From Sipunculus nudus (lineage: Eukaryota > Annelida > Sipuncula > Golfingiida > Sipunculidae), in assembly GCA_026874595.1 (NCBI GenBank), contig CM049313.1, positions 24,424,008-24,488,007 on the forward strand: a DNA stretch of 64,000 nt. Reading direction: 5' to 3'. Below, one piece after another: positions 10,730-64,000 of the stretch. The notes under the pieces were generated by a model. The model was not told where the DNA came from. It saw nothing but the letters and a program-made list of their open reading frames with translations, and searched no databases. Every line of letters begins with the position of its first letter. The stretch's first letter is position 1. The translations under genes and the position numbers were made by a program.

Positions 10730-10743
10730 TACCCTCCCCTTGG
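10730..10743 (-). promoter_or_regulatory. Polypurine tract
   Basis: On the minus strand the sequence just before the 3' LTR reads ccaaggggagggtag followed by TGTCACAGG. A purine run directly abutting the 3' LTR is where second-strand DNA synthesis is primed. Confidence 0.8.
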
Positions 10744-11034: not shown

Positions 11035-14000
11035 TTAGGTTCCAGGTACACGGCTGAGAAAATCGGGCCCATGATTAACTCTGCCAGACACTGATTCAAC
11101 CTTGAACTTATATTCTTGAAGCACCATCGCCCAACGCATTACACGTTTATTCAAACATTTGGATTGGTTGATATAGATTAAGGGCCTGTGATCTGTTTGA
11201 ATGATGAAGGCCCGTCCAAATAGGTACAAGTCATATTTCCGGACTGCCCATACTACAGCAAGGCATTCCTTCTCTATAGCGGAATAGTTCTGTTCGGACT
11301 TTGACAGTTTGCGGCTCGCATAAGCCACTGGATGTAGAACACCAACACAGTCCTGTAGCAGAATAGCTCCCAGTCCTCGATCTGAGGCATCTGTTTGGAG
11401 CACGAATGTTTTAGAGAAGTTGAGCAGTTGTAAAATGGGAGGGTTTGCTAGTTTTGACCTCAGAGCTTGAAAAGCTCGCTCCTGCGGTTCTTCCCATTTA
11501 ACCTTATTAGGTTGCCCTTTTCTGGTGAGGTCAGTTAAGGGTAAAGCAACCTCTGAATAGTTTGGGATGTAGCATCTGTAGAAACCTGTTAGGCCAAGGA
11601 AACTACGGTCTTGTTTCTTTGTCACAGGACGCTCAGTATCCTGAACTTTCTTGACAAGAGCTGGGTTTGTAGCCAGATGGCCATTACCCACCTGATGACC
11701 AAGAAATTCCAAACTTGGATAACCAATGAAACATTTTGATGGTCGTGCAGACAGATTAGCTTCATGCAAGATTTCAAGCACACGAGTGAGCGATAAAACA
11801 TGCTCGTTCCAGGTTTCATTGTGCACTAAAATGTCATCAATGTATGATACAACGTTATTCACGCCATCAAAGAGTTTACGCATCATACGTGTGAATAGCG
11901 CAGGAGCTACCACAATTCCGAATGGGAGGAAACGAAATTGCCATTGACCATCTGGGGTCACAAAAGAGGTATATTTTCGAGCCCAGGCAGCCATTGGAAC
12001 CTGCCAGTACCCTTTTGCGAGATCGATTTTCGTGAAAAAACGACTGTGTGACAATTCCGTGAACAAGTGTTCAGGGTTTGGCAATGGTTCAGGATCAAAT
12101 ACTACAACACGATTTAATTTTCTGAAATCCACGCAAAACCGCACATTGTTATCTTTTTTTCTGACCATGACGACCGGTGAGGCATATTCGGATTCAGATC
12201 GCTCAATAATGCCAAGAGACAGCATATCTCTTATCTCTTTTCTCATTGTTTCCCGAACAGCTTGCGGAACTGGATATGGTCTAGATCGGATTGGATCAGA
12301 TGTGGTCAAATGTATGTCACATTCTATTACATTTGTCTGTTTCGGTACGTCTGTGAAAGTGTCCTTAAACCTATCAAGAATTTGGCACACATCAGATTTC
12401 TGAGCAGTCAATTCAGAACTTACATGTACATCTGCTTTTGTTTCTTTCCTAACCACAGTAGGCATAGGAACAACATCTGTCAGATCAGTGTCAAACTCTG
12501 CCTCATCTGATTTACCTTCAAGTTCATCGTGTGAAACATCAGTCGCACAAAGTTGCTCAACTACATTATCAGACATAGGGGCATCAAACAAGCAGCTTAC
12601 CTGAGCTGGTTCCGGTCTACGAATGTATCTTTTGAGCATATTTATATGGTAGGATTTCAATTTACCATTGACCTTGACTTGGTAGTCATTATCATTGAAA
12701 CGTGACATGACAGGGTATGGACCTTTCCATTGAAGGAGTAGTTTATTATGATCAGTGGGGAGAAGTATTAAGACTTCATCTCCAGGCTCAAGGGATCTAG
12801 GTTTCTTTCCCAGGTCATAGTACCTTTTGTACCTACCTGCTGCTTTTTCCAGGTTTTGGTGTGCTAACTCACATGTGTCCTTGAGCTTTTCCTTGAGATC
12901 AATGACATATTGATAAGTAGATTTTACCTCTGCATCAGTAGTTTCATTTGTCATCAATTCTCTCAATACTTTCATGGGACCACGAACAGATCTACCATAA
13001 AGTAACTCAAAGGGAGAGAACTGGGTACTTTCTTGGGGTGCTTCTCTATAAGCAAAGAGCACAGCATTGAGGTATCTGTCCCAGTCCCTAGGACGTTCAG
13101 CACAGAGTCGCTTTAGCATGAGTTTTAATGTGGAATGGAAAGACTCAATGAGCCCATTACACATAGGATGATAAGGGGTAGTACACAATTGTCTAATAGA
13201 CAACAAACGACTCACCTCTTGCATGATGGCTGACGTAAACTGTGCGCCCATATCACTCAATACTTCAGACGGGATTCCTACTCTGGAATAAATGTCTACA
13301 AGTGCCTCGGCTATGGTTTCAGTATCAATGTTAGGCAACGCTACAGCCTCTGGGTATCTAGTAGCATAGTCAATGAGGGTAAGCAGGTATCTGTTACCCT
13401 TGTCTGATACAGGTTTTATTGGACCCACAATATCAACCGCAACCCTATGGAAAGGTTCATCTATGATAGGTACTTTGCCTAGAGGCACCTTGGCAACCTT
13501 GCCCTTCGGGAGAGTCCCCTGACATATGTCACAAGATTTGCAATAGGTACTTACATCATTGTGCATGTTTGGCCAGAATAATTGAGATGAGACTTTCTCA
13601 AAGGTACGTGCAATCCCTAGATGAGCTGACATTAATCCATCATGAGCCAGTTTTACAATATTTGCCCTATATTTTGTTGGCACAATAACCTGTGACCGTG
13701 GCTTGTCAGTTGCTAACCTGCCCGAGGTGACCCTGACAAGGTAATTGTTTTTCACATGGAACTGATATCTACCTTCCTGTGGCAGCTTGGCTTTCTGCCA
13801 TAAGTGAGCTAAGCTGTCATCATCTTTTTGTGCAGCCAAGAAATCAGAAGGAGTTACATCTGAGATAGGACTTGTCCTTTTAAGGGCCACAACAGGTTTT
13901 TCCTTTTCAGCTTTTGCTGCTCTAGTCTCTACAGCGTGGCAGTCTACATGCTCACTGTTATGCAGTACAGTCTTACCTTTGCCAAGAATCGGCGCTTTTA

Positions 14001-15153
14001 ATGTCAGATCGGGATCATTGACATCTCTAGCCCCAGGTATGTTTCCGATGATGACATCATACACTGGCTTTGCTATACAGAGTGCCTCTACTTCTCCACA
14101 ATAATATGGTGAAGATACATTCACGTGAGCTAAGGGGAATTCACGGACGGTGCCATCAATCAAGACACATGTTTGTTTATTACCAGTGAATTGCTCTGGT
14201 TGAATTAATTCTAGTCTTACAACAGCAGTGCTGCACCCAGAATCACGAAGAACAGTAACCTGTTTACTGTCCAAGTAGCCATCGCTGGTTGGCATCTTAC
14301 ATGCGTGAGCTTGAGAAACCTTGTCTATACCTTCTTGACATGATAAGCTAAGAACATCAAGTTTATGTCCACACTGGAGAGTTACACGACCCTCATTTGT
14401 GCAGCAGTCTTCTAATTTGCTAGCTAAACAAGCTGCTCCTGTGTTATCAGATTTAGAGTCATTACTCTTACCGGGTATCACATCTTCCATGGCCTTCAAA
14501 ACTGCTTTTGCTACTCTATCAGCTATTGCTTCATGTTGAGGTTTGTTACCTTGTGAATTGTCTACATCTAATGCCTGCGCAAGAGACCTCTGTTTCTGGG
14601 CAGTGAAACCTTTTCTTTCTGGACAATCACGAGCAAAGTGCCCGGGACGTTTACAGAAGTGACAAGTGAGCCTAGAGACATCTTTAATGGAAACTGGAGA
14701 CTTACCTGATGCAGGGGGACTGCGGAAGTCTTCTGCCTTAGGCTGGTGCCTTTCAAGTGGCTTTTGTTTCTGTCCATGCCAATCTTTCCTTGCCCATAAA
14801 CTGTGAGTGTAATACCCATGAGCCTCATTAAAACGCTCAGCCAATTCTGTAACAGTGTCTAAACTAGTACATTTTCTTTCTCTGAGAAATACTGATAATT
14901 CCTTGCAACAGCAGTTCATAAACTGTTCCCTAAGAATTAAATCTCTTAATTGATCATATGTCAGATGGATGCCTGCCATTTTCACCCTGTTATCAAATAA
15001 TCTGCATAAACGCGATGTGAATTGACCTGGTGCCTCATTCCTTTCCGGTCTACTTGTTCGGAATTTTGTCTTATCATAGTCCATCGCATCAGAAAGGGGC
15101 ATCTGCGTGTAAACTTCTAACGACTTGCCCTTTAACAAGGCACTAAGTCTCAT
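11035..15153 (-). CDS. Gag C-part-Pol polyprotein, integrase before reverse transcriptase
   Basis: This 1372-residue open frame encodes most of the LTR element's proteins. Residues 1-110 are Gag capsid C-part, SCAN-like (YDQLRDLILREQFMN). A zinc knuckle lies at 164-177 (CHFCKRPGHFARDC). Protease is suggested by DSG at 304-306 and VYDVIIGNIPG near 364. Integrase follows: HHCC at H504, H511, C541, C544, then D574, D634 and E670 (D-x59-D-x35-E) and a GPY/F-type module near 806-842. Reverse transcriptase comes only after it, about 930-1140, with KIDLAKGYWQ (D1044) and YIDD at 1104-1107. RNase H is at about 1247-1365 (D1255, E1294, D1321, D1364). No chromodomain is seen. The first ATG is internal: true Gag starts upstream at 15556, cut off by a frameshift. 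The SCAN link fits published derivation of SCAN from Gmr1-like Gag. All catalytic residues look present. Confidence 0.95.
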   Translation of the reverse strand: MRLSALLKGKSLEVYTQMPLSDAMDYDKTKFRTSRPERNEAPGQFTSRLCRLFDNRVKMAGIHLTYDQLRDLILREQFMNCCCKELSVFLRERKCTSLDTVTELAERFNEAHGYYTHSLWARKDWHGQKQKPLERHQPKAEDFRSPPASGKSPVSIKDVSRLTCHFCKRPGHFARDCPERKGFTAQKQRSLAQALDVDNSQGNKPQHEAIADRVAKAVLKAMEDVIPGKSNDSKSDNTGAACLASKLEDCCTNEGRVTLQCGHKLDVLSLSCQEGIDKVSQAHACKMPTSDGYLDSKQVTVLRDSGCSTAVVRLELIQPEQFTGNKQTCVLIDGTVREFPLAHVNVSSPYYCGEVEALCIAKPVYDVIIGNIPGARDVNDPDLTLKAPILGKGKTVLHNSEHVDCHAVETRAAKAEKEKPVVALKRTSPISDVTPSDFLAAQKDDDSLAHLWQKAKLPQEGRYQFHVKNNYLVRVTSGRLATDKPRSQVIVPTKYRANIVKLAHDGLMSAHLGIARTFEKVSSQLFWPNMHNDVSTYCKSCDICQGTLPKGKVAKVPLGKVPIIDEPFHRVAVDIVGPIKPVSDKGNRYLLTLIDYATRYPEAVALPNIDTETIAEALVDIYSRVGIPSEVLSDMGAQFTSAIMQEVSRLLSIRQLCTTPYHPMCNGLIESFHSTLKLMLKRLCAERPRDWDRYLNAVLFAYREAPQESTQFSPFELLYGRSVRGPMKVLRELMTNETTDAEVKSTYQYVIDLKEKLKDTCELAHQNLEKAAGRYKRYYDLGKKPRSLEPGDEVLILLPTDHNKLLLQWKGPYPVMSRFNDNDYQVKVNGKLKSYHINMLKRYIRRPEPAQVSCLFDAPMSDNVVEQLCATDVSHDELEGKSDEAEFDTDLTDVVPMPTVVRKETKADVHVSSELTAQKSDVCQILDRFKDTFTDVPKQTNVIECDIHLTTSDPIRSRPYPVPQAVRETMRKEIRDMLSLGIIERSESEYASPVVMVRKKDNNVRFCVDFRKLNRVVVFDPEPLPNPEHLFTELSHSRFFTKIDLAKGYWQVPMAAWARKYTSFVTPDGQWQFRFLPFGIVVAPALFTRMMRKLFDGVNNVVSYIDDILVHNETWNEHVLSLTRVLEILHEANLSARPSKCFIGYPSLEFLGHQVGNGHLATNPALVKKVQDTERPVTKKQDRSFLGLTGFYRCYIPNYSEVALPLTDLTRKGQPNKVKWEEPQERAFQALRSKLANPPILQLLNFSKTFVLQTDASDRGLGAILLQDCVGVLHPVAYASRKLSKSEQNYSAIEKECLAVVWAVRKYDLYLFGRAFIIQTDHRPLIYINQSKCLNKRVMRWAMVLQEYKFKVESVSGRVNHGPDFLSRVPGT

Positions 15154-15160
15154 GGCCCAT

Positions 15161-15556
15161 TCAGATGGGTCCCATTTCTGCCCTTTCGCAAAACGCTCGA
15201 ATCGTTCGAGATAAAGAGTCTAAACGATCACGATTCTCATCAAATGGCGGAATTTTTAGAGGGATGAAGTTGATAATTGGTGATCTTTCCGATTGTTCAC
15301 CATTTTCGCGTGATTTGTCAGCCATTTGTTTTTTTAATTGTAACATTTTCTCATCATGTTTACGCTCAGCTTCCTTTTCCTGACGTATCGCGTCTTGACG
15401 CGCTTCTTCGCGTTTAATTAACCGTTCTTCGCGTTCAGCGTCATCTCTTACTTTTTTCTCTAGGCGCACACGTTCAGTTTCTACAAACTATTGCAACTCA
15501 GGGCCTGAATACCCAAGCTCTTTACCCAAGGCAACTAGCTCTTTTAAGTGTTCCAT
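15161..15556 (-). pseudogene. gag N-terminal part, one nonsense codon and one frameshift
   Basis: The likely start ATG is at 15556 on the minus strand (MEHLKELVALGKELG). A TAG codon interrupts at 15490-15488, codon 23. The frame continues in phase through a highly charged, probably coiled-coil segment (KREEARQDAIRQEKEAERKH) to KIPPFDENRDRLDS. A one-base difference in the T run near 15218-15222 then shifts the frame; the alternative frame continues in phase into the 1372-codon pol frame, showing that Gag and Pol were one polyprotein. About 130 residues are affected. The leader from the 5' LTR to the start is about 535 bp and contains only unconvincing frames. Confidence 0.8.
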
Positions 15557-16075
15557 TTCTAATTTATGAAACACGAACACGAACAGCGGTGTGGTGCAAT
15601 CTCCGGTTGCACCCAGAAAAAAAAACACAAACGGCTGTTTATCGCCGTTACAGTATGTACCTACACGTAGATACACCACCAAGTTTATGGTACCAAACTG
15701 AGCTTCAATGCTCCTTCCCCATAGGGAAACCCTAACTGAACACAAAAAAAACAAAGTAAGGCCAATCGCCTTAGCGTATTCGATCATTACCCCAGCCGTA
15801 GCTGTTAAAACAATACAGGCCGTAGCCAACCCCAGGAGTCAACAGGTACATAGACCGAAATCACCGCAGTATCTTTGTCCGTAGACTAAAGACTACCTGC
15901 GCAGTCATGCACGGCCACAAAACAACCAGCAAACATGAAAAAGACTTTGACACTACATATACCTGAGGATTTCTCTCTCACTAGGGAGAAATATATAAAG
16001 TTCAGAGGAATGCCAATTTTCAAGCCTTATGTTTGTTCGAGGAGTGCGGAAAAGTACCCGACAGTTTGTAGGCAT

Positions 16076-16092
16076 CCTGGCATGCTCGCCAG
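16076..16092 (-). promoter_or_regulatory. Primer binding site, tRNA-Arg-like
   Basis: On the minus strand, one base inside the 5' LTR, the sequence reads TGGCGAGCATGCCAGGA. TGG is the complement of the tRNA CCA end. The rest resembles the complement of tRNA-Arg(ACG) as I remember the human molecule, with two mismatches in about 17 positions. Priming by an arginine tRNA is therefore inferred; the species' own tRNA could match exactly. Confidence 0.65.
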
Positions 16093-17251
16093 TGTCACGG
16101 GGTCACCCTGGCCCGTGGCCAGGTTCGTTTGAAATATTAAGGAAGGATGCCCAAGAATAGCCAAGCACTCTCACACACACCCATGAACAAACAACTAAGG
16201 CAGCAGGTATACAACAAACTTTTTGTATTGACTATATATACAGTGAATTTCAATAAGTTGACTTGGCTGGTAGCTGACGCCGATTTAAAGTTGACACAGG
16301 AACTGCTACAGGTACCAGAGGGACCTTCCCAAAAGTGCGATATCTGAAGACAAATAAAACCCTTATTTCATCTTTACGGTTCGCAACAAAATCTTCCCAA
16401 GAGAAATGTGTCACAAGAAGGGAGTTTTTAGACAGAAAAGCTAGAAGGACATATAGGATTTAAATTAAGACCGGATTTCAACAGGGCACGGCACAAGTTA
16501 ATGGAGTAAAAATTATAGTAATGAAAATATATAACCAGTTATGTTCTTATGAGGCTGCAATACAGTGCCTTTACAATGCAATAAGGAAAATTGTAACAGG
16601 CTCACCAACATTGCGTCAGAGTTTTAGGAACGTCTGTTGTCACAGGTTGGTAGTGGTGGCGTTGGGTTTTCATGGAAACCATCCCTCAGGTTTACTTCCG
16701 GTGCCTGGTTTCCCAAAATTTTTGCTGCTTGTGTAGAGTAATGCATTGCCAAATATTAACATGTAACTTCAGTCACTGTACAGTTTGGTAGAGAGTTTGG
16801 TTTACCATTGTTCATTTGGCAAAAATGAACTCTGACTTCACTTCTATGTTTTTTTTTGTGTGTGTTCAGCTCATAGGTGAACCTCTCGGTTCCAGGTTCA
16901 CAGACCAACTCTGGCCTTCACACAAGATTCCCCATGCACCAAGACACAGAAACGTTACAGCCTCACTTTGAGTTGTGTGATTACCAGGGCATAAGAAAGG
17001 ACGTGTGACAGGGAGAAAGGGGATTCTTAACAAGCAGAAAATAGAACAATTTAAAACCCAATGAATACACCGGGCATTGAAAGGCTGGACCTGACATGGT
17101 CCACTGCACTCAGTAAAAACTTGAAAACAGATCAGGGATTTAAGGTTACAGGACCTTACGGGCTCGGGGAAAGTTGAGGGCAGGGTTAGAAAACTGAGTC
17201 ACATGTAAAAATATAGTAATAATTATCGTTTTCAGCAGTCAACCTGTGACA
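16093..17251 (-). repeat. LTR (5' LTR in element orientation)
   Basis: Near-identical partner of 9571-10728. A TATATATA stretch at 16233-16240, read on the minus strand, lies about 140 bp from the inner edge and is a plausible core promoter for the element transcript; that is inference from position. I see no AATAAA on the minus strand between it and the inner edge. Confidence 0.95.
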
Positions 17252-17256: not shown

Positions 17257-18004
17257 AAGGTAGAAGATTCCGGATGCAATGGTTAAGTTTGTGCCCTGTT
17301 AAAAGACGACCACATATTTATCAAAAGGAAAGATAATAATGCGTAAAAAGTCCAGATGGTGCCATCAGTATGCAGGAATTGATGAAACATTCCATGATGA
17401 ATATGCATGCAAAGAATCATGGTGATCAATGCAACAGTTGTTCAGATACTAGAGCTTTTGTATCATTTGTTTTAGTTATTTATTGGGGGTACTTCTGAGC
17501 CCCATAGCTCGGACAGTATGGGTGATAGAGACATAATTTCATATTTCAAACAGACTTTTCATGGGCCTCCTTGCATGTCAAGATACAAGATTCTAGGTCC
17601 AGTCATAACGATTTGTGCCCTGTTAACATATGACCACATCTTTAAAGGTCTCAAAAACAGAGAAAAAAAAATCATGAAAATAAAAAAAAAATATATATAG
17701 TAGCGCCACCAGTCTGCAGAAACTGATGAGACTTTCCATGACCAATATTTATGCAAAATTCATGGTGATCAATGCATTAGTTGTTTAGATACTTGAGCTT
17801 TTCTATCTAATTTTCCATTATTCTGGGGGGGGGGGGGGGGGGTATTTTGAACCCCATAGCTCAGAAGTTTTGAGTAAAAGAGACCTAATTTACGTTTCGA
17901 AAGAGACTTCTCATGGGCCTACTTGCATGTCAAGATAAGAGATTCTAGGTCTAGTCATTACGATTTGTGCCCTGTTAACAGATGACCGCATCTTTTAAGG
18001 TCTC
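17257..18004 (+). repeat. Dispersed repeat, block 1 continued (right of the LTR element)
   Basis: Continues the repeat broken at 9570: removing the LTR element and one target copy joins 'ctctggatgtc' to 'aaggtagaagattcc', matching the repeat consensus seen at 61980-62035. It contains 'agtctgcagaaactgatgag', 'cgatttgtgccctgttaac' and a 16-17 G run near 17826-17842. The block stops at 'ggtctcaaaaaa', 18004, where the LINE region begins. Confidence 0.85.
17826..17842 (+). repeat. Poly-G run of about 16-17
   Basis: An uninterrupted G homopolymer inside the dispersed repeat where other copies have 'ctggggggtact'. Expansion of a pre-existing G6 is the likely origin. It could form a G-quadruplex. 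Length may be unreliable in the assembly. Confidence 0.8.
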
Positions 18005-18314
18005 AAAAAATTACATCAAGCTATTCTATATTAATAATTATTTATATACAACATCCATATACAAAACTTTAGTATTGCACCATATATTTGTTGTTCAGCT
18101 TTTTAGAGTTACATTTCTTATTCTGTGTAATTTTATCTATGCAGGAACACAACTCCAGATGCCGTTATAGTCACCCACTATAAGTTCTCGAGATAGCTGT
18201 TACATATAGCTGTCTATCCCTCCAGACACACTCCTGCTCATTTCTGGTTGTTAATTACAAACCACATCTTATCAAACTGTTAGTTTTTGTTCGTGTGTAC
18301 ATCAATGTGTCAAT

Positions 18315-33417: not shown

Positions 33418-34366
33418 TACATGAACCTTCACAGAGTATAAACATGAACCTTCACAGAGTATAAACAGTAACCTTCATAGAGTATAAACATTAACATTCA
33501 TAGAGTATAAACATAAACGTTCACAGAGTACAAAGATTAACCTTCACAGAGTATAAACATTAACCTTCACAGAGTATAAACATTAACATTCATAGAGTAT
33601 AAACATTAACATTCATAGAGTATAAACATTGACCTTCACAGAGTATAAGCATGAACCTTCACAGTATAAATATTCACAAAGTATATACATTAACTTTCAT
33701 AGAGTATCTACATTTACCTTCATAGAGTATAAACCTTTACCTTCATAGAGAACAAACATTTACCCTCACAGAGATTAAACATTAACCTTCACAGAGAATA
33801 AACATTAACCTTCACAGAGTAAAAAACATTAACCTTCATACAGTATAAACATTAACCTTCATACAGTATAAACATTAACCATGACAGAGAATAAACATTA
33901 ACCTTCATAGAGTATAAACATTAACCTTCACAGAGTATGAACATTAACATTTATACAGTATAAAATTAACCTTGACAGAGAATAAACATTAACCTTCATA
34001 GAGTATAAACATTAACCTTCACAGAGTATGAACATTCACAGTGTATAAACGTTAACCTTCACAGAGTATGAACATTAACATTCACAGAGTATAAACATTA
34101 ACCTTGACAGAGAATAAACATTTACCTTCATAGAGTATAAACGTTAACCTTCACAGAGTATAAACATAAAAATTCACAGAGTATAAACATTAACCTTCAT
34201 GGAATATAAACATTAACCTTCACAGAGTATGAACATTAACCTTAACACAGTGTAAACATTAACCTTCACAGAGTATAAACATTAGCATTCATAGAGTATA
34301 AACATTAATCTTCACAAAGTATAAACATTAACTTTTACAGAGAATAAACATTAACCTTCACAGAAT
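33418..34366 (+). repeat. 23-bp minisatellite, about 40 copies
   Basis: The unit is close to cattaaccttcacagagtat followed by aaa. Variants alternate cacag/catag, acctt/acatt and tataaa/gaataaa. Copies remain in register with occasional short units (33660-33690, 34025). If the RecQ-like exon at 34606-34803 belongs to a gene, the array would lie in its first intron. Confidence 0.95.
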
Positions 34367-36715: not shown

Positions 36716-36992
36716 TTGTTACGGAACCTAATAACAACAGATCAGGTAATCGCGACCAGCACAAATTTTGTTACTTCTCATCCGAAAATTCTAGAAATGG
36801 AAAACGCACATGAACAGACCTGAAACATCTAGAACAAAGAACGCTGCGTCTCTACGCTTCAGACCCCATACGCGAGCCAACGCCCAACAAGCGAGGTTCC
36901 CATAGCAACGAATGATGCCTGCGCTAGACGAATCAGAATGTGAACAGACACATGTTACACCCCTCGTACAATAAAACAGACACCTATAACAA
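36716..36992 (+). mobile_element. 277-bp non-coding element, TTGTTACGG...TAACAA ends
   Basis: The left end TTGTTACGGAACCTAATA matches the sequence at 49688; the right end, with 'acaataaaacag' and 'cacctataacaatatata', matches the sequence ending at 58394. The short inverted ends are TTGTTA/TAACAA. A (TAA)n/(TA)n tract follows at 37010-37062. I read it as a short, internally deleted relative of the candidate large element at 49688-58394. Confidence 0.6.

Positions 36993-49655: not shown

Positions 49656-49687
<32 letters not shown>
49656..49687. repeat. (TA)n microsatellite at the left end of the candidate large element
   Basis: About 30 bp of TA ends exactly at TTGTTACGG (49688). Confidence 0.95.
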
Positions 49688-49692
<5 letters not shown>

Positions 49693-49696
49693 ACGG

Positions 49697-51570
49697 AACC
49701 TAATATAAACAGATCACGTATGCGTGATGAACATAAACGGAGATAAAAAAATCAGATTCTGCAACACTAGGCAGCGTGAAATGGGGAATGAATAAAGAAG
49801 TCAGTGGTTTTTTGTTAACAAACAACTATAATTTATTCTTAAAACAACCGTAACAATACAATACACTAAATCAATACAATAATACAGTAAAACAGCGGTA
49901 TAGCAACAATTCAATATAATCACACAGAAAATAATGTGCACAGTACCTGGATACCAATACCGTCACCACGATAAGTTCCCCAAATGCATACTCTCGGAGA
50001 ATGACAGTCCAGTGTATAAAGTTCCCGCAACAATCCATAAAGTAAACTGAAGTCCAAATCCATAAAATCTAGGAGAAAGTCTTAGAAAATAATCTATAAT
50101 TGCCGCATTCGTCGGATAAGGTCTTAGAAACTGACACACGCTTCTGCGTCCGCTGGAATCTTTTCTGCTCTCTCTGCCCGTTCTAAAACACAGCCCCTCT
50201 ATAAACTCTTAAACCCAAGCCGAGAATTTTCCACTTCTCGAACAGTCTATAAGATCTTGCCCAACACAGTAAGCACGCGCTTCAGGAATTCTCTGGAAAA
50301 ACAGCGCTGTGTGTATCTCTACATACATCACGTGACCTCGGCCAGGCGTGAAAACCCAAGGCCAACACGACAACGAGAGTTCAACCAGTACGGATCAAAC
50401 AGAGAATGTAATACATGGCCACACTGTTATAAACTTATGTATTTTTGCACAACCTTGCATGTTTCTATATACACAAAAGTCTTGTATGATTACCCCTGTA
50501 CAGCACATTGCATTAACACCCGTCCGTCTAAATTACATGCATTGAGGACTTCACATATCATTATGTGTAATGTGCACCACCGACCCGACAGGTTGCCACA
50601 GGTGTCCGGAGGATGTTCGGCTGTGGCTACTCTGGAGTGCTGGCTTATCAGCTGCTTATGACCCATCGAAGGCCATGCAGATGTGCGGGTCAGGGTATTT
50701 GCATCATTGAAGTCTTTGTGGGTATCGCTGGGCCGGCAAATGGGTCATGACCCGTATGGACGCGGCATCTAGCGCGATTTCTTTTGCGTGTGCTGTGTAT
50801 ATAACTACGTCTACAGGAGAGGGTTCCAAGAGACACAGGCGTCAGACAGAAGAAACTGCAGCTCCAGTTAACAACGTGTTTGACTCAGGCTAATTCTGCA
50901 GCATTTATGGTAAAATGATTCCCTAATTTTATTATAACAGTGTCTGACATGTACGCAGGTATGTCAAATTGTTGTTAGAATTAAAATAGTTACATGTAGA
51001 TCAGTAACGTTTATGTTTAATGATCATTTACTACACGATATATGCATCGTTAGGCCCAAGTAAGCTCATTTAGCAGCGACGGCTTGATTATAACCTTTTA
51101 CTAAGTATTATGAATGGAAAATTCAAACAAAATTCGTAGTGTGCTTGAGTGACTGAAAAATGTTTGTTAACAAGCGTTGCATGCATCATTCAAAATTTGA
51201 TTATTATTTTAAGCCCCATGAATTAAGCATATCTTAATTTGGCGGTTTCGTTGTGGTGACCGACAGCCTTGTTTTGCAAGCAGAGTGCACTTATAGGCTT
51301 ACGATCATAGGTTCATTTAATCCAACAGTTGAATTCAGAATGTGATATAGAACAGTTAATTAAATAAATGAAATAAATGAGAGTTATTCAAATACCTATC
51401 ATGTTTCAGATTATTTTATAAGAAAATTGATTTCTTATTACAATTAACGATTTTAAATTTAAGGCTGACAAAAAATGTTCAAATGCAAAATGTGTTTTTT
51501 TTGTGGAGGTAACCGCCTCCATTTTTTAATGCTTGCTTAACTAAGTATGTACACCTGCAGAATTCCATTC
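49697..51570. other. No recognisable gene
   Basis: Left interior of the candidate large element. The 134-codon frame at 50257-50661 shows no family resemblance. GC content rises at 50140-50400 and 50570-50880. A promoter might lie here, but nothing specific is visible. Confidence 0.4.
50422..50942. repeat. 11-bp inverted pair, possibly coincidental
   Basis: CACTGTTATAA at 50422 and TTATAACAGTG at 50932 are exact inverted copies 520 bp apart. No target duplication accompanies them; chance is possible at this distance. Confidence 0.25.
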
Positions 51571-51579
51571 CGGTTTCGG

Positions 51580-51760
51580 ACTACGTGACAGGGGCTTACA
51601 CAACCAGGCTCGGTGAATCACTCCTGCGGGTCCTGGGTGTACCTCATAACACCGAGGAACCCCCGAAAGGGAAAAATCTCACCCGCTCGGCTGAGATTCG
51701 AACTAACGATCTCCCGGCTTTGAGCCCTGCGCTATACCCCTGAGCCACAGAAGCCGGTTA
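51580..51760 (-). mobile_element. tRNA-derived SINE, minus strand
   Basis: The minus strand reads ggcttctgtggctcaggggt (A box TGGCTCAGGGG), then agttcgaatctc (B box GTTCGAATCTC) about 45 bp later, forming a tRNA-like head. It is followed by a ~110-bp body (gggttcctcggtgttatgag, ccaggacccgcaggagtgat). This is a Pol III-type short interspersed element. The head cannot fold as a full functional tRNA without alignment, and I could not find a clear tail or target duplication. Confidence 0.7.
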
Positions 51761-52174
51761 ATGCAAAATATTTTATTTCAGAACCCGATCTTTAAAAGGC
51801 TAGGTCAGGCATTACAAGCTCCACAGTAATATTCCAAATTTGTGTTTCCTCGTGTTGTTGCTAGTTGTCATTCTTTTATTCACTATGAATCAATCAAATC
51901 AAATATTTCACGACAACACGAAACATAAAAGCAAATCAAAGGGAAAAACCAACTGACAGGAATTTCATTTGTAATAGAATATTACAAAGAAAGATGTAAC
52001 TGCTTATCGAAATAGTTCTCGCATTTGAAAAATCACATCCGAAAGGGGGAAATATTTCCTGTCCATTCAAAAAATGCGACAAAAATTCATAAAGTATCTA
52101 GCTTTTCATCACATTTGTCACGAGTGCATCATGATTGATCTGCGTGCTGTTTAAATGATTGTGTAACTCTACAG

Positions 52175-53310
52175 GATGATACTGTTAAAATAAGAAATGT
52201 TTCAAGTGTGGCAGTAGAACAAATCGATGAAATTGACACGGAAACTGATTATAGCCAGGATTTATGGGGTCATGGGTATGAAAGTGATGGTGAGGATGAC
52301 CAGAAAGCACAAATAGCTCCAAGTTCAAGCAGGGATTTTGAAAATGAGTTATTAAGAAAAGTGGCTTTATTTCTATTAACACTGGAAACAAAGCGGCATG
52401 TGCCTGCATCTGTCTTACGGTAATTACTGAAGAGCCTCAGTGTGTTCATGTGTTTAGTTCATCTAATGTATCATTCCATATAAGGAACAAGTTGTTGAAA
52501 TATAATCATAATGGATCTAAATTACCAACAGATTTCATAGAAGAAGTCTCATAAATAGTACAAAATGATCCCTTGGCTAATATTCTTGACCAAAAGCAAG
52601 GTCCATTTAGATCAAAACAAACAGGGAAGACTTTCAACAAGAAATGGCTATCCTTTGTTGAACCAGAGCCTTATAAGCTTGGTAAAAGTGACGAGAACAG
52701 ATATTTTCGCAACGTACCTATACTAGAATCATTGCAGTCCCTTTTCAAGGAAAAAGGTATAGGTCTGTATTTAGATACAAACAATTCAATTATGGATAAA
52801 ATGTAAGATTTTCATGATGGAAATTCCATTTAAAGTATCACTTTTTTCCAAGAAAATTCAGATGCAATCAAACTCCTGTTGAATCAGGATGCCTTTGAAA
52901 TAGCCAATCTCCTTGGGTCAGCCAAAAGAAAACACAAACATCTTGCAGTGTATTATTCATTAGGAAATTTACATTCAAGCATACGAAGTACAATTGACAC
53001 AATGCAGCTTGTACTTTTATGCAAAGGGAGTGATTTTAAAGCTGAACTGGAAGAAAAGGGTGGGAAAAATGGTAAAAACTCATTATTTTGGCCATTAGTA
53101 AGAGATCTGAAAACACTTGAGGATGAAGGGGTCTGCCTTGGTATGGCTATTGGTACAAGAAAGGGCACGGTAGCATTTGTTCTAGGCAAAATTCTGTTGT
53201 GTTTCCATTAAGTCTGTGCTTGACCATCCACCTCTGGAGCTCTATACAAAATCGCCGTTTAAAGGGGACTACATTGTTCTCAAGCACACTATATAACACT
53301 TAAAGGTAAG
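52175..53310 (+). pseudogene. N- and C-terminal remnants of a large multicopy animal family, function unknown
   Basis: A tctacag acceptor precedes 52175. Coding-like blocks follow: TDYSQDLWGHGYESDGEDD, LRKVALFLLTLETKRHVPAS, NDPLANILDQKQGPFRSKQ, EPEPYKLGKSDENRYFRNVP, LLNQDAFEIANLLGSAKRKH, LAVYYSLGNLHSSIRSTID and GTVAFVLG. I remember this order from a ~1000-residue family with many copies in corals, fish and molluscs; its copy number suggests mobile origin, but I know no proven function. At about 53200 the sequence jumps to a C-terminal-like KGDYIVLKHTI, so the middle ~600 residues are deleted. In-frame stops occur near 52552, 52803 and 52831 and a frame change near 52424. A donor (AAAG|GTAAG) follows at 53306. 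Confidence 0.6.
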
Positions 53311-56300
53311 ATATTTACTTGATATTGTCTCATTTATGATTTGTAATGATCAACGACAGAAGAAAGAAAACCATTTAATCATCGGTATGGCCCAAAACTT
53401 TATACAAAGATATTATAAATATATTTAGCTCATAGTTTTATGTATTATTCAAACAAGATATATTTTATCATATACTTCCTGCAATTAATACCTATTACTC
53501 ATCCAAAAATATTAAAAATATTTGAGTGTTGATTATATTAGATGGATGAAATCAAGAAGTTCCTGAAAGGTTCTCTGCCAGGGCTCACAGACCAAAAGCT
53601 GGACGATGTAATGCAAGTTATGGAGGGCCATGGGTTGACTACACTGGAATTCTTAGAAGAATACTTGGAACCAGAGACGGACTTAAAGGACTGCTTCAAC
53701 ACTCTACAACGGCGCAAACTGTCTGCCAAGCTGAAGCAGATTAAATCTGGAAAGGAAACTGTAACACAACCTTGCAAGTTACATTTAGAAAGCTGCCTGC
53801 TAGGTTTATATGAAAGAAAAAATGTATACCCCACTGAAAGACGTGGTTAATATGGTTTTAAACGGTCACAAGAACGGAAGGATGGCTGCTTTTGAAATTA
53901 GAACGAAAATCTCGCATAGTAAGATGTTAGAGGAGTTCGATTTTGAACTTAATTTCCAAAGTAAAATAAAAGTCAAATACAGGGTTACTGTGAACCACAT
54001 ACCTTAAGGAATTCTGCATATTTGCTTTTCAATGTCATACACTTAAAGTGCTCACAGTTTTTTCAAGTGCTTGAACAAGAGTGAAAATCGTTGACCAGTG
54101 TTATTGAAAAATGGTTAAATTGAGTCACTTAAACAAAATAATGTACGTGGATTTGCTGTAAAAATTATGTCAAACAAAATACATAACAAAGAGTGAATAA
54201 TTCGAATAGATTATGATTCTTTTATGTTCTTTTTTAGATGCTGCTTCAGAACATGAGAGAGCCCAATGATATTGTAAACTTTAACATTTATTTACATTAA
54301 GTTTAATTTAATTGCAGGTACGTGTTTATTAGTTCTGTGAATATAACTAAATATATGTTGAACGGAGTAGATCATTCTACAGTTTCAATTTTTAAGCTAT
54401 TGGTCTGTAATAGGCTCTACTTATTTTCACCTGTAAACTTTTTCCTGTACTTGCACCATAACTTAAAAAAGTTTTTTATCATCAAAAGTTGTTATAAGTT
54501 TCACCCTGATGTAAAAGTACTGAAAAAATTTCAATATTAAAATCAAAATAATGCAGGTTAAGTAGTTCCTAATAAGTCTGATGCATGCATCCTCTTTAAT
54601 ATATCATTCAACTCACTGATAATGCAGTTTGTAACAGAAGAGAAATAATTATGAGAATATTATTTTTTTTCCTTGTATTTTTTATTCAGACACTGTAGTA
54701 GCGGTTCACACTCCGCCTCCAACAAGCGCACACCAAACACCAAAACAAAGTCATCCCTCAACACCAACAACAGGCCTAAGCCTAGCCACTCTACTGGATC
54801 AGGACAAGAGTCCTTACTTCGATCCCGACTGGGCACACAAATTCCAAGTCCCATTGGAGAAATGCTCGAGGGATTTACTCGATGGCTGCAGGGAAAACAG
54901 ACAAGGTAATAAAATAGAACTTCTGGCCTTCAACAGAATTCTTGGGACGCGATATGGACAGTGACCAAAAAACCTGGTACAGAATCACTCCAGGTAATAT
55001 GCAAAAACGTATGTGAGAAGTATCCAGCAACTTTTGCTTACAGAATACCAGGGTATGATGGTCCCTTGAGAAATAGATACACTACAGTATAAAACAGTAT
55101 AAAGTCGGTACAAAGGAGCTAGCTCGTTCAGGAAAAGGATGTATTCGTCAGACGATCATGTAGAGGGATCAGCCAAAAAGAAGAGGAAGACGCCTTCCTT
55201 GTACAACAAGGACCAATACGGCTGTGCCAAGTGGCAGCCGGATGGTCTTCCTGAGTGAGAGACAGATGAGTCGCAGGAGGAGAACAGGCTCTGGATGGCC
55301 AATGAGTTTAGGAAAGCCCACCAGGACACCGACCGCGTAAAAGCCTTAATGGCAGCCACATATGCGACCCAAAGATTTTTAATCAACCAAAAGGATAGCA
55401 CGGTTTCTTTGGTCCTGCAGTCATGGCCATTTTTACAAAACGGTAATATGTTCCTGGATCACTTCAACACCTTAATGGATTTTTATTTGTTGTCAAAATT
55501 AGACGAGGAATATCGAGCAAAGAGCGATGATATCATAAACTTTGCTTCTGAATGTGGCAGCAAGAGAGCTCGACAGGAGGCAGCCAAACTCAATGGCCAA
55601 AAGGAAGCGCTTCACCTCCAGATGCCGAGGGAAGCAGGTGCCTTGCTTCTTCTACCAGCCTTACTGGATGAAGAGGACGGTCTCATGCATAAATAGACAA
55701 ATGTAACCAGTATTCATATTTTCAAAATTTTTCATTTTAATTTAAAGTGTTAATCTAAGTAAAACCTTTCTGTGAAAAGAAGGATAATGTAGGAGGGTAG
55801 GATATGCCAATGGAGACATATGTTAACGAAATATTTAGATAAATGCTTTACAGCTTTATAAACTTCGTTTATTGTTATATGTCCATTCTATAATGACTGA
55901 AATGGCTTGAAATCATGACTGGTTACCTTTTATATATTTAAGAGGATACAGCAACGGCACCAGACATTGAAGCAACAGATGACATGCCCCACCCACATAT
56001 AGTCATATCAGTTAAGAAAATAGTACTTTTGCTGAATGAATTTAATAACATTGCCTGTATCAATATATACCAATGCCCTCAGGCCCTTTGATTTAGCTAT
56101 AAAATGTACCCTTTGACTCATTTTATGTTCCAATGACCATTTAATTACCACTACCAGTAGATATTTTTATTATATAAAGGTACTTGGAACACTTAGTGTT
56201 TAGTAATAATTTAATGTCAGATTTTGTTAAACGACAACTTGGTTCAGTGAGATATAATATAAACAGAATACATTTTACATTTCAGTTTCAGAGTCAAGTT

Positions 56301-56360
56301 AGTTTCAATTTAACTCTCACTTTTAATTTAATTGTATAATTAATCCTCGTTATTTTGCAG

Positions 56361-56523
56361 GAGACCATCCCCTCAGTGGAAACTGCTTTGCTGTGGTAGA
56401 GGGACACCTCCTAGCTGCTAAGGAGGACTTCAGGAAGGCCGTGGCGGTTTTGTTTGCTGCCTACTACTGTTTTAACCTGGCATACCCAGAAAAGATTGGA
56501 GCCTCGTTGGAGTTCATGCAAAG
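56361..56523 (+). CDS. SAMD3-like exon with intact splice sites
   Basis: The acceptor tattttgcag precedes 56361 and a donor GTAAAC follows 56523. The exon encodes GNCFAVVEGHLLAAKEDFRK and ASLEFMQ, and ends in a split arginine codon (AG|G) completed by the first base of the exon at 57131. The frame is open throughout. The preceding short exon (55943-56010) has a non-ideal donor, GTTAAG, one base out of phase. Confidence 0.65.
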
Positions 56524-56759
56524 GTAAACTACCTTATTATTTATGTATTCAACTAATACTTTTGATTATTCTCAATATACTCAAACACAAATTCATAAGA
56601 TGGCAGATGCTGATACAGTCAAGAATGTGATCTGCAGTATATATGCATCTGTCGTTAAGTAATTAGGTCTGCATGCTTAGCTGATGTGGGTTTGATTCCT
56701 GGTAGGTGTTGGTGTAAATGTTTTATCTGAAAAGATGTGTAAACTCAGGTCTGATGTGG

Positions 56760-56779
56760 TATATATATTTATATATTTA

Positions 56780-56832
<53 letters not shown>
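56760..56832. repeat. (TA)n microsatellite in an intron of the SAMD3-like locus
   Basis: About 70 bp of TA with a few T insertions on the left side, between the exons 56361-56523 and 57131-57416. Confidence 0.95.
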
Positions 56833-56835
<3 letters not shown>

Positions 56836-57130
56836 TTCAGTATGAATGTCTCATCTTGTAAAATCATTAATAATATTGCCCCTTAGGAAAAGGTGTTGAA
56901 ATAATTGTATCCACAGGTTGAAAGGTCTGTGATATATAAGGCCTTGATTCATATAGTTGAGCTCACTGGAGCTGGAGGATACCAGTAAAAAAAACATTTT
57001 AGCTCTTTCCTGTTGGTCATATCTGATTTATACCCGGAACAAGCTGGGGACAAAGCGGTGTCACTGACGCCAGTTTTCTGACCACGTTGATACTCTTGAT
57101 ATGTATAATTATTTCAACATATATTTTCAG

Positions 57131-57416
57131 GCTGTTTGCGGGGATAAATCCTGGAAGAGGAAGCAAAATTGAAAAAGGGACGAAAAAACGTATTCCTGCC
57201 ATGAACAAAAAGGTGCAGCAAGCATGGAACCATTTGAAAGATTACAAAAAAAATGGCAAGTTTAAATGGGCCCAGAAGGATCTCCCTGGACTCAGCATAT
57301 ATCTGCCAGGCCCACATTGTGCTGACCTGTGTGAAATTAAATCTTATAAATTATGTAAATTGAAATTATGTTTATGTTGCATTATGGCTATGTTGCCGTA
57401 TTGGTTTAATTGATAT
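57131..57416 (+). CDS. SAMD3-like terminal exon
   Basis: The acceptor tatattttcag precedes 57131. The split codon joins that of 56523, giving RLFAGINPGRGSK, then a lysine-rich run and KKVQQAWNHLKDYKKNGKFK, and a stop at 57414-57416. The last ~30 residues are cysteine/leucine-rich and may be non-homologous extension. A following AATAAA is not close by. Confidence 0.6.
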
Positions 57417-57889
57417 ATTATGGTTTGGTTTTCAGCTGATAAATCGAAAAGTAAACTAAAATATTTCATTCGGGTTCCAGAATTTGATTTAGTATTAAAT
57501 TATGTTCTTAAGAAGTCATGGGTTAAATTGTTTTGACATGTTCCAGTATTTTCTAAAAGGCATATAGCCTGACTATATTTAACAAATTGTAACCACACAA
57601 TCATCGTACGCAATAATGGGAAAAAATTATATATAATTGAAACATTTTATTGAATGAAAATTTCTTAACTAAAATAAATTGTTTTTATTTTACATTGGTT
57701 TTTTTCTTGTTTTCATGCTTAATCAACTTTCCCCACAGCTTTTCAGCATCAACATCAACAAGAAAATATATGCCATTTAATGGGAGATTGCAGTAATAAT
57801 CTTCGATTGACCCTCCCTGTCCATATTTAAATATTCTTGTTGAAATACAGTATATTATCTGTAATTTCACATTACTGATATGTAAAATT

Positions 57890-58331
57890 ATTTATCATGA
57901 ATGAATACAACACTCTATATAAACTTACAAAACAATGCATTTAAAATTATACATCATTGTATGTTAAACTACACAACAATGTATATAAAATAACACATTT
58001 CACATTAATTAACCCAACAATGCATATTAAATTACACAACATAGTACATTATTTTACACAACAATGCATATAAAATAACACAACATTGCTTATACACGAC
58101 AATGCATATAAAAATACACAACATTGAACAATAATTTACACAACTTTGCGATTTATATTACACAACATTGCGAATTATATTACATATCATTGCACATTAA
58201 TTTACACAACAATGCATATACAATTACACAACCTTGCAAATTACATGCCACGGTAATTTTACAGAACATTGTACTGGCACCCATGCTGCCATAACATTGT
58301 GGTGTAAAATTACAGTCAATTTATGACAGTG
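57890..58331. repeat. Subterminal-type short repeats (acacaacaatgcatataaaat)
   Basis: The motif 'ttacacaacaatgcata' and variants recur about 12 times at 25-35-bp spacing, alternating with 'acacaacattg'. The block ends 'gtgtaaaattacagtcaatt' and 'tatgacagtg'. It lies just inside the right end of the candidate large element, where many DNA transposons carry clustered transposase-binding repeats; that role is inference. Confidence 0.65.
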
Positions 58332-58389
58332 CAGACACGAGTGCCACAACAGGAGTTACGCCCGTGTTACATAATAAAAGAGCACCTGT

Positions 58390-58394
<5 letters not shown>

Positions 58395-58456
<62 letters not shown>
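58395..58456. repeat. (TA)n microsatellite at the right end of the candidate large element
   Basis: About 60 bp of TA starts directly after cacctgtaacaa (58394). Confidence 0.95.
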
Positions 58457-59289: not shown

Positions 59290-60911
59290 ACTATCAACAA
59301 AACACACCCCAGCGTTGCAATGTATGTATATTTTATTATAACCTCGGTCTTCCCGTGAAAAAAAAAATCGACGGATTGCTGTATTTTCTTTATAGGCCAA
59401 CATTTATTCCTAAGAATTAATAGTTTAAAATTTATCGCGTAGAAACGTTCGGGCAGGGGTAATGGGACGGACTTTACCAAAAGAAATTTTAATACAGAGA
59501 ACTTTACTTTGGCCGAGGATTTACGACGCTTTGGGATGTACATAATAACCCTCTGATTGGTATGGAACAGATCAAGCATAACACGAGTGCCTTCGTCTTG
59601 GAGTTTTTTTTCTCACCAGGCAACAGATGTCGACGATTATAAATCGGGGGGGGGGGTGACTTTAGCCGCTGATGTCTGTTCTTCAAATATTATAAATCGG
59701 GGGGTGGCGGGGTGACTTTAGCCGCTGATGCCTGTTCTTCAAATGTTATAAATCAGGGGGTGGCGGGGTGACTTTAGCCGCTGATGCCTGTTCTTCAAAT
59801 GTTATAAATCGGGGGGTGGCGGGGTGACTTTAGCCGCTGATGCCTGTTCTTCAAATGTTATAAATTGGGGGATGGCGGGGTGACTTTAGCCGCTGATGCC
59901 TGTTCTTCAAATGTTATAAAACAGGGGGTGGCGGGGTGACTTTAGCCGCTGATGCCTGTTCTTCAAATGTTATAAATCGGGGGGTGGCGGGTTGACTTTA
60001 GCCGCTGATGCCTGTTCTTCAAATGTTATAAATCGGGGGATGGCGGGGTGTCTTTAACCGCTGATGCCTGTTCTTCAAATGTTATAAATCGGGGGGTAGC
60101 GGGGTGACTTTAGCCGCTGATGCCTGTTCTTCAAATGTTATAAATCGGGGATGGCGGGGTGACTTTAGCCGCTGATGCCTGTTCTTCAAATGTTATAAAT
60201 CGGGGGGTGGCGGGTTGACTTTAGCCGCTGATGCCTGTTCTTCAAATGTTATAAATCGGGGGGTGGCGGGGTGACTTTAGCCGCTGATGCCTGTTCTTCA
60301 AATGTTATAAATCGGGGGTGGCGGGGTGACTTTAGCCGCTGATGCCTGTTCTTCAAATGTTCTAGTAGGTGAGCCACCTCATCAAGACTCTCACCACGGG
60401 TCAATTTCCATGTGACCTGTTCCCCATTTCCATTCAATACAAGAAAGAGTGAACTATATTGTCTTTCAAACTTTTTGGTAAATGGATTTACTACACCTAC
60501 ATTTGATGCAACTTTGAATGTATGATCATTTTGGAAGAGTTGCACCGCCATCAATGTTACTCATCTGCTTGGCGCACAGGTGTTCGTGTGTTGTAAAGGC
60601 CCGGATAAACAGCCGCACCAGCGCATCATCAGACGGAGATTTTAAGTAAATATATGGACGGTCTTTACTTTCAGGGAAAGAATTTACAATATTTAGTAGC
60701 CCTTTTTGTCTCCTGACGTTTGCACCATGCTCCAACAGCTGAACGAGGTCACCTTGTGTCCTCCTATTGGTGAGGTCTCTGAAATTGGCTGCAGCAAGTG
60801 CAAAAGGCATGCCTGTTGACATGAGTACCCTGAATGCACAACAAATTGACGTGTGAATCCTATACGTGGACTGCTGATAATGGAAGGGACTTCATATTCA
60901 CTAAGCAACAT
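59290..60911 (-). pseudogene. Transposase-like gene split by a minisatellite
   Basis: On the minus strand from 60911: a region with HGANVRRQKGLLNIVNSF and SPSDDALVRLFIRAFTTHEH, then after a one-base shift near 60545, FQNDHTFKVASNVGVVNP and LFLVLNGNGEQVTWKLTRG, then LDEVAHLLEHLKNRHQRLKS. Here a 720-bp minisatellite (59640-60358) interrupts. Beyond it the sequence resumes with IIVDICCLVRKK and, after a one-base change in an A run (59611-59618), LQDEGTRVMLDLFHTNQRVI and PERFYA. The D of DHTFK and the D of VDICC are in the positions I remember for a family of RNase H-fold transposase-like proteins whose name I cannot give. A second fragment lies at 22541-22770. Confidence 0.6.
59640..60358 (-). 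repeat. 57-bp minisatellite, about 13 copies
   Basis: Unit (plus strand): gactttagccgctgatgcct, gttcttcaaatgttataaat, cggggggtggcggggt. Units are 55-58 bp, mostly differing in the G run. The outer copies grade directly into the coding frame on both sides (NRHQRLKS on the right; the 'attataaatcgg' junction at 59637 on the left), so the array grew from within the transposase-like gene. Confidence 0.93.
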
Positions 60912-61480: not shown

Positions 61481-64000
61481 GGGGTCATGACGTTCAGCTG
61501 ACCAGGAAGACATTGACAAAGTAATTTTATCATCTGAATGTCAAATTTGAATGAAATACTTTTTCCAAACTTGACCTTTTGTATAAAATCATCCAATATT
61601 CATTGGGGTACTATGGAGCTCTGTAGCATGAAGGATATGGGTAACAGACACCTATTTTCAAGGTTTACAAGATGACTTTTCAGGGGTCTCCCAGCATGTC
61701 AAAAAATAAAATTCTAGGTCCAGTTATTATGATTTATGCCCTGTTAACAGATGACCAAATGTTTATTCTGGGGGGTATTTCAAAGCCGCATAGGATGAAG
61801 GATATGGGTAACAGAGATGTAATTTCAGGTGCTCAAGGAGACTTTTCAGGGGCCTCCCAGCATATCAAGAAAGGAGATTCTAGGTCAAGTCATTATAATT
61901 TGTGCTCTGTTAACAGATGACCAAATCTTTATTCTCGGAGCCATAGCATGAAGGATATGGGTAACAGAGACCTAATTTCAGATTTCCAAAGAGACTTTCC
62001 AAAGGCCTCCCTGCATGTCAAGAAAGAAGATTCTAGGTCCAGTCATTATGATTTGTGCCCTGTTAATATATGACCAAATCTTTATTCTGGGGGGTACTTC
62101 AGAGCCCCATAGCTCACAGAATATGGGTAACAGGGACCTTATTTCGGGTTTCCATGTAGACCTTTTATGGGCTTCCCTGGAGGTGAGGACAGAAGATTCT
62201 AGGTCCAGTCATTATGATTTGTGCCCTGTTAACAGATGGCCGCATCTTAAGAGGTCTCAAAAATAGAGAAAAATATTGGTAAAAATCGAAAAAATACAGG
62301 TGGCGCCACCAGTCTGCAGAAACTGATGAAACACTCCATGATCAATATCCATGCAAAGAATCATGGTGATTAATGCATTAGTTGTTCAGATACTTGAGCT
62401 TTTGTATTAAATTTTGCATTATTCTGGGGGGTACTTCAGAACCCCATAGCTCAAAGAATATAGGTCACAGTAACCTAATTTCAGGTTTACAAGGAGAATT
62501 TCTATAGACCTCCCAGGATGTCAAGTAAGAAGATTCCAGGTCTAGCGGTTACGATTTGTGCCCTGTTAACAGACAGACGCCTGGATGGCCGGACAGACGG
62601 ACAAAAGGTGATCCCTATAGCTCAGATGACTTTCAGTCAGCTGAGCTAAAAATTGAAAAAATACAGGTGGCGCCACCAGAATGCAGAAACTGATGAAACA
62701 TTTCATGATCAATAATCATGCAAAGAATCATGGTGATCAATATAATAATTGTTCAGATACTTGAGCTTTTGTATCAAATTTTCCATTATTCTGGGGGGTA
62801 CTTCGGAGCCCCATAGCTCAGAGGTTATGGGTAACAGAGACCTAATTTCAAGTTTTTAAGGAGACTTTTCATGGGCCTCTCAGCATGTCAAGAGAGAAGA
62901 TTCTAGGTCCAGTTGTTACGATTTGTGCCATGTTAACAGATGACCGCATCTTATGAGGTCTCAAAAATATAGAAAAAAATTCGTAAAAATAAAAAAAATA
63001 CAGGTGGCGCCACCATACTGCAGAAACTGATGACACATTCCATGATCAATATCCATGCAAAGAATCATGGTGTTCACTGCAATAGTTGTTTAGATACTTG
63101 AGCTTTTGTATCAAATTTTCCATTATTCTGGGGGGTACTTCGGAGCCCCATAGCTCAAAGGTTATGGGTAACAGAGACCTAATTTCAGGTTTCCAAAGAG
63201 ACTTTTTATGGGCCTCCCTGCATGTCAAGAGAGAAGATTCTAGGTGTAGTCCTTACGATTTGTGCCCTGTTAACAGATGGCCGCATCTTAAGAGGTCTCA
63301 AAAATAGAGAAAAATATAAGTAAAAAATGGAAAAAAAATACAGGTGGCGCCACCAGTCTGCAGAAACTGATGAAACACTCCATGATCAATATCCATGCAA
63401 AAAATCGTGATGATCAATGCATTAGTTGTTCAGATACTTGAGCTTTTGTATCAAATTTTCCATTATTCTGGGGGGTACTTCGGAACCCCATAGCTCGAAG
63501 AATATAGGTCACAGTGACCTAATTTCAGGTTTACAAGGAGAATTTCCATAGACCTACCAGGATGTCAAGTAAGAAGAGTCCAGTTCTAGCGGTTACGATT
63601 TGTGCCCTGTTAACGGACAGACGCCCGGACGGCCGGACGGACGACGGACAAAAGGTGATCCCTATAGCTCAGATGACTTACAGTCAGCTGAGCTAAAAAA
63701 TAACATTGGATAGCTAAATCCATACATGTCCTTCAGGTAAATGCTGACAGTATGCACAAGAATACAGGCCGTGTTCAAGCAGGGCCTCCCTGCATGTCAA
63801 GAGAGAAGATTCTAGGTGTAGTCCTTACGATTTGTGCCCTGTTAACAGATGGCCGCATCTTAAGAGGTCTCAAAAATAGAGAAAAATATTGGTAAAAATC
63901 GAAAAAATACAGGTGGCGCCACCAGTCTGCAGAAACTGATGAAACACTCCATGATCAATATCCATGCAAAAAATCATGATGATCAATGCATTAGTTGTTC
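61480..64000 (+). repeat. Tandem dispersed-repeat array, ~340-bp units with a 12-bp palindrome
   Basis: Starts 'caagtgacccaggggtcatga'. The left part (61540-62240) has shorter units of ~170 bp with 'ttctaggtccagt', 'gatttgtgccctgttaacag' and 'atgggtaacagagacct'. From 62240 units of about 340 bp run: 'cgcatcttaagaggtctcaa', 'atacaggtggcgccaccag', 'ctgcagaaactgatgaaaca', 'atgcaaagaatcatggtgat', 'ttgttcagatacttgagctt', 'attctggggggtacttcgga', 'gccccatagctc'. The palindrome ggtggcgccacc is at 62299, 62666, 63003, 63344 and 63912. Two copies end in a 'gacggacaaaaggtgatccc' / 'tcagtcagctgagctaaaaa' tail (62600-62650 and 63640-63700). The array runs off the window. Confidence 0.9.

Follow-up and report, generated by a model that had tools for sequence, protein, structure and literature searches.

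Passages in three reports (PMC4298943, PMC1636069, PMC12730594) describe CA..TG ends and 2-bp duplications in CACTA-type elements, and suggest that the ends of animal TRC elements start with CCC. According to one of them (PMC12730594), fungal DNA transposons carrying TET/JBP genes, some of the CMCT type, bear a second gene beside the transposase. The region studied here is a 64,000-nucleotide stretch of the Sipunculus nudus genome (assembly GCA_026874595.1, contig CM049313.1, positions 24,424,008–24,488,007, forward strand), hereafter called the window, in which a segment of 8.7 kb lies within a TA run. We find it highly probable that this segment results from two nested insertions, first of a Gmr1-like retroelement now present as a solo long terminal repeat (LTR) in the TA run, then of a two-gene, 7.9-kb CACTA/EnSpm-like transposon with a putative accessory SAMD3-like factor (Table 1).

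Subterminal repeats are a trait of CACTA elements. The inner transposon has such repeats together with CA..TG ends and 2-bp duplications, as in the CACTA/EnSpm group (CMC/CMCT). In a relative of its transposase-like gene (L070; L numbers denote the genomic places compared), C(2)C and H(3)H motifs were read by eye, and the match to Transposase_21 is weak and below the cut-off. The inner transposon differs from that group by a SAMD3-like second gene, downstream and on the same strand, and by subterminal repeats that are mostly one-sided. It starts with CACTGT, whereas CCC is suggested for animal TRC elements. The presence of a second gene accompanying the transposase is shared with the TET/JBP-carrying transposons, although their host is a fungus and their gene encodes a dioxygenase instead of a SAMD3-like protein. 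For the outer element, the closest systems are the Gmr1-like Ty3/gypsy LTR retrotransposons. Their integrase lies upstream of the reverse transcriptase, and the SCAN domain is linked to their gag. The outer family has the same gene order, a SCAN-like gag, and a polypurine tract (PPT) and primer-binding site (PBS) beside the LTR; the window differs in keeping the solo LTR alone, and the interruption is its one unusual trait.

The whole 8.7-kb span was compared with the 1.43-Gb genome. Among the best 40 of 9,904 candidates, many places showed positions 1–737 of the query followed directly by 8645–8707, and the window was the sole place with left and right ends paired at the 8.7-kb spacing. The two LTR parts (49689–50421 and 58332–58393) were then fused in a script into a 793 bp sequence and compared with 57 loci, some of which had been entered via the inner element. 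End-to-end alignment was obtained for 31 of the 57 rows, corresponding to 30 distinct places as L057 is the same as L027. The 811 bp copy in L007 matched 49688–50424 and 58332–58393 without the insert; that in L001, of approximately 767 bp, matched up to 50372 and resumed from 58346, also without the insert. Because the empty site in L007 carries a single CA where the window has CA on both sides of the insert, the 2-bp CA duplication is attributed to the inner transposon. The nesting of 50422–58331 inside the solo LTR, with these borders, is near certain.

An earlier prediction for this DNA (hereafter the original prediction) had taken 49688–58394 for one cargo-carrying transposon with the ends TTGTTACGG...GTAACAA. 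Much of what it described was found again: the ends of the span resemble those of a 277-bp copy (33 bp on the left, 49688 versus 36716, and a 41-column alignment on the right), (TA)n adjoins both outer edges, two genes lie inside, and the subterminal repeats assigned to 57890–58331 were located, as 22-bp repeats, at 57907–58243. The resemblance of the ends and the TA runs are what a single unit would have in its favor. This reading is refuted by empty sites, 30 distinct places being unbroken across the insertion point of the window; moreover, inverted ends and a 2-bp duplication belong to the insert itself, and copies of it are present at six other places with different flanks. We regard the probability of a single 8.7-kb unit as negligible. 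The predicted gene-carrying transposon with subterminal repeats does exist, but with the borders 50422–58331, and the ends originally noted belong to the interrupted solo LTR. The 277-bp copy had been considered a miniature version of the whole span. From its match to both ends of the 795-bp copy in L011, it is best read instead as an LTR with an internal deletion, and no clean duplication is seen in its flanks (CCAT and ATAT).

The ~800-bp repeat is the LTR of a Gmr1-like Ty3/gypsy element. In the genome, 1,323 + 1,328 exact occurrences of the left 18-mer were counted, and 0 of the reversed control. With the LTR ends taken as TGTTACGG...GTAACA, both ends were found at 31 other distinct places, the pairing being restricted to ends 150–1200 bp apart and thus blind to other 8.7-kb pairs. 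An exact 4-bp target duplication was present at 20 of these 31 places, 11 with ATAT and 9 with other sequences (e.g. CAGT, GAAC, GGTA); the TG...CA ends and short direct duplication are those of a solo LTR. The flanks were imperfect at three places (L042, L045 and L058). In non-solo copies the LTR borders a PPT-like flank (six places: L007, L017, L023, L038, L043 and L055) or a PBS-like flank, TTGGGGGCTC... (two places: L048 and L051), which we take to be of the tRNA-Pro type. In L066, the one copy where this was seen, the minus strand beside the LTR encodes a SCAN-like gag (SCAN, 2.6e-12) followed by Integrase_H2C2 (5e-18) and RVT_1 (6.9e-37) in Pfam, with the integrase upstream of the reverse transcriptase. 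A miniature inverted-repeat transposable element was considered for the ~800-bp repeat and rejected, since the repeat borders PPT-, PBS- and pol-like sequence. In the window ATAT is found on both sides of the LTR halves, which has little weight inside a TA run. Among the papers listed in a literature search for the end sequence, none was related by title.

The inner transposon ends with CACTGTTATAAACTTATG and, reversed, CACTGTCATAAATTGACTG. The inverted ends begin with CACTGT in the window and equally in L062 and L068, in agreement with a CACT(A/G) start. Copies were found at six other places (L059, L060, L061, L062, L063 and L068), a lower bound because only the best candidates were scored. 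A 2-bp duplication was present in all four copies with both ends found: CA in the window, TA in L061, TG in L062 and TA in L068; its length is within the 2–3 bp of CACTA/EnSpm elements. The subterminal repeats are mostly one-sided: 22 loose matches to the motif CACAACAATGCA were counted in the inner element (14 at 57928–58262, two close to the left end, six at other positions), compared to 19 in the remaining 54,500 bp of the window. A short interspersed nuclear element (SINE) is located at 51495–51776 and was matched at 39 other places (best 40 of 3,905 candidates); its matches swamped a DNA search with 51060–55760 as the query. From its ends, its duplication and the relatives of its transposase-like gene, the inner transposon is likely CACTA/EnSpm-like.

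The original prediction found no evident mobilizing protein. What it called a deleted multicopy-family gene appears, from the relatives L071 and L070, to be what is left of a transposase-like gene. In the window this gene stops just short of the part that holds D-N and C(2)C in the relatives, and the C(2)C / H(3-4)H region, between the second D and the last E, is missing from it. The relative in L071 continues with GDN...CRYC, read by eye, and the second H was not seen. The relative in L070 (1433–3901) has an 823-amino-acid open frame with C2H2-like fingers, CRTC, HFLIH and RFEAKH, motifs recognized by eye against the description in PMC12730594. It matched Transposase_21 at 5.4e-5 and 22.9 bits, under the Pfam cut-off of 28.6, and pieces of the window, whose copy is without the catalytic part, and of L071 gave no Transposase_21 match in Pfam. 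A structure predicted from the single L070 sequence had a mean predicted local distance difference test score (pLDDT) of 34.6 and was not used. Near-equal transposase matches were listed at 11 places, L070 among them, eight of the 11 having an 823-amino-acid frame, which suggests a young family.

An in-frame stop and frame breaks interrupt the spliced SAMD3-like gene (53542–57338). The final two exons, partly decayed, could be recognized in all five copies tested, and these exons were also recognizable at the sixth copy (C7). The term "SAMD3-like" is a label from the original prediction, and a sterile alpha motif (SAM) domain could not be confirmed. A search of the PDB returned only Octarellin V.1, at 0.022. 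In L067, a SAMD3-like gene at 4470–7992 has a 311-amino-acid open exon; transposon ends are not visible in the 9.7 kb covered, and it is possibly a host or domesticated gene. In searches limited to open-licence PMC papers, none of those listed was found to link SAMD3-like genes or the sterile alpha motif with transposons, the SAMD3 papers being judged by title or opening of the abstract.

Grouped with a 12-kb distance, the SAMD3-like matches (52 rows, best 87 of 122 candidates) gave 25 places including the window. At six of the 24 others a transposase-like gene was present within 12 kb, always upstream and on the same strand, where 0.02 would be expected. The pair therefore exists at seven places; those outside the window are on C17, C6, C4, C14, C3 and C10 (approximately 8 kb apart in C10), with a transposase identity to that of the window of 36–59%. 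In L071 (C6), both genes lie in 7,796 bp between CACTGTG inverted ends flanked by a TA duplication. This pair of ends had 19/26 matches, with 11/13 at the start, and none of 40 first-order resampled sequences reached 19. In L072 (C17), an end CACTGTTATAAA is located 1.7 kb before the transposase and only those 12 bases are common with the end in the window; no convincing pair of inverted ends emerged from the scan, and the right end may lie beyond the stretch scanned. Because the gene pair recurs in the same order and strand at six further diverged places, the SAMD3-like gene is probably no chance cargo but the regular second gene in a CACTA-like lineage of animals. The conservation of order and strand at seven places, at such transposase identities, indicates that the association is old and retained.

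Several observations weigh against this picture. The gene-bearing middle (52130–55700) had no other DNA-level match in the genome, most of the middle is absent from the six other copies, and within this transposon family transposase and ends occur together in the window copy only. The left end was unrecognized in L059, L060 and L063, the ends of L061 are GACTG and CATTG, and L059 and L060 have common flanks and were counted as one event. In L071, an AT-microsatellite pair outscored the CACTGTG pair (22/26 versus 19/26), but with 9/13 versus 11/13 at the start. Exon 1 of the window, like that of L071 and that of L067, had no Pfam match to a SAM domain, although such short single exons make a weak test. 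Finally, a transposase-like gene was absent within 12 kb from 18 of the 24 other SAMD3-like places; six of them are deleted copies of the inner transposon, and the twelve not so explained, outside the family, speak against a simple picture. Two of the places examined, L067 (9.7 kb) and L069 (9.9 kb), had no significant match to the transposase and no CACTG ends that were convincing, and look like stand-alone genes in these stretches.

These twelve places, together with L067 with its long open exon and without visible transposon ends, would fit a different origin, in which a SAMD3-like gene of the host was captured by a CACTA-like transposon and carried passively. The pairing at other places would then go back to a single old capture, with later divergence, and the SAMD3-like protein would have no role in transposition. 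The absence of a SAMD3-like match from the 5 kb of L070, one of the 11 similar transposase places, points in the same direction. The order and strand kept at seven places are less easily accounted for by passive cargo, which we hold to be possible, if rather doubtful. It could also be imagined that the transposase-like remnant and the SAMD3-like gene entered the element by separate later insertions, as the SINE did enter the same stretch and, in L059–L061, 21 bp of different sequence connect the flanks of the 4.7 kb that is missing. The last SAMD3-like exons are however found in five other tested copies, L068 retains 46 bp of the stretch missing in other copies, and the same gene pair lies within another element, L071, so that separate insertions seem very improbable.

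For the nested insertions, we propose the following history. A Ty3/gypsy Gmr1-like retroelement inserted at an ATAT site of the TA run and was reduced to a solo LTR, presumably through LTR–LTR recombination. Later, a 7.9-kb, probably CACTA/EnSpm-like cut-and-paste transposon entered the LTR, duplicating the CA seen once in the empty site. It carries a transposase-like gene and then a spliced SAMD3-like gene on one strand, both broken in the window copy. An intact transposase, then encoded here or elsewhere, may have cut at the CACTG ends. The plant protein TNPA acts on subterminal repeats. By analogy, the SAMD3-like product could be an accessory factor of transposition or expression, perhaps acting on the 22-bp subterminal repeats.

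The nesting explains the apparent large transposon, and the transposase-like gene is a candidate for the enzyme missing from the original prediction. More generally, SAMD3-like proteins might be the second transposition protein, the counterpart of TNPA, of an old CACTA-like lineage in animals whose members have CACTGT ends and 2-bp duplications, many of the annotated animal "SAMD3-like" genes being transposon-borne or domesticated; we give this slightly less than an even chance. The link between this multicopy "SAMD3-like" family and a CACTA-like transposase is a case that can be tested. If the proposal is true, animal CACTA elements have a two-gene form whose second protein is open to study, and annotated SAMD3-like genes deserve checking as possible mobile elements.

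Table 1. Location of the features of the nested elements and of the 277-bp copy (positions in the window).
Feature	Position	Strand	Basis or remark
277-bp copy, best read as an internally deleted LTR relative	36716–36992	-	1–59 and 94–277 match the two ends of the 795-bp copy in L011
Left 4-bp target duplication ATAT of LTR	49685–49688		Within (TA)n run; uninformative alone
Solo LTR, first part (TGTTACGG...)	49689–50421	-	Retroelement sense strand is minus
Left CA of 2-bp target duplication	50420–50421		Empty site GGC[CA]GACACG in L007
Inner DNA transposon, 7,910 bp, CACTGTTATAAA...TTTATGACAGTG	50422–58331	+	Inverted ends, empty site, copies
Left terminal inverted repeat	50422–50454	+	~33 columns align with right end
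tRNA-like SINE within inner transposon	51495–51776	-	Type and orientation read by eye
Putative transposase-like gene remnant (TP), stop-broken	52139–53208	+	Stops short of D-N / C(2)C part of relatives
SAMD3-like exon 1	53542–53760	+	
SAMD3-like second exon, first piece	54689–54907	+	
SAMD3-like second exon, second piece, frame broken	54937–55089	+	
SAMD3-like second exon, third piece, in-frame TGA	55103–55693	+	
SAMD3-like exon (called exon 5)	56360–56524	+	Also in other copies
SAMD3-like last exon found (called exon 6)	57129–57338	+	Also in other copies
Right-end subterminal repeats of inner transposon, 22 bp, motif CACAACAATGCA	57907–58243	+	Repeat and motif scan
Right terminal inverted repeat	58299–58331	-	Alignment with left end
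Right CA of 2-bp target duplication	58332–58333		Empty-site comparison
Solo LTR, second part (...CACCTGTAACA)	58332–58393	-	Sequence comparison with uninterrupted copies
Right 4-bp target duplication ATAT of LTR	58394–58397		End pairing

Other repeats were observed in the window. Two tandem tRNA-like units at 5303–5724, starting with TTACGGGGTGACATAAA and ending with CGTAACAA, lie beside a TA run and resemble either a dimeric SINE or a further LTR-like repeat sharing the TTGTTACGG start. The segments 9571–9870 and 10327–10626 are repeated 6.52 kb downstream with 99% identity, and this region (9571–17149) might contain two young LTRs or have been duplicated recently. Tandem repeats were found at 33419–34364 (23-bp unit, approximately 42 copies) and at 59637–60361 (56-bp unit, 13 copies, 95% matches). 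A tandem array with 166- and 337-bp periods covers 61597–63994, and related sequence is present at 9113–9532 and 17288–18009.

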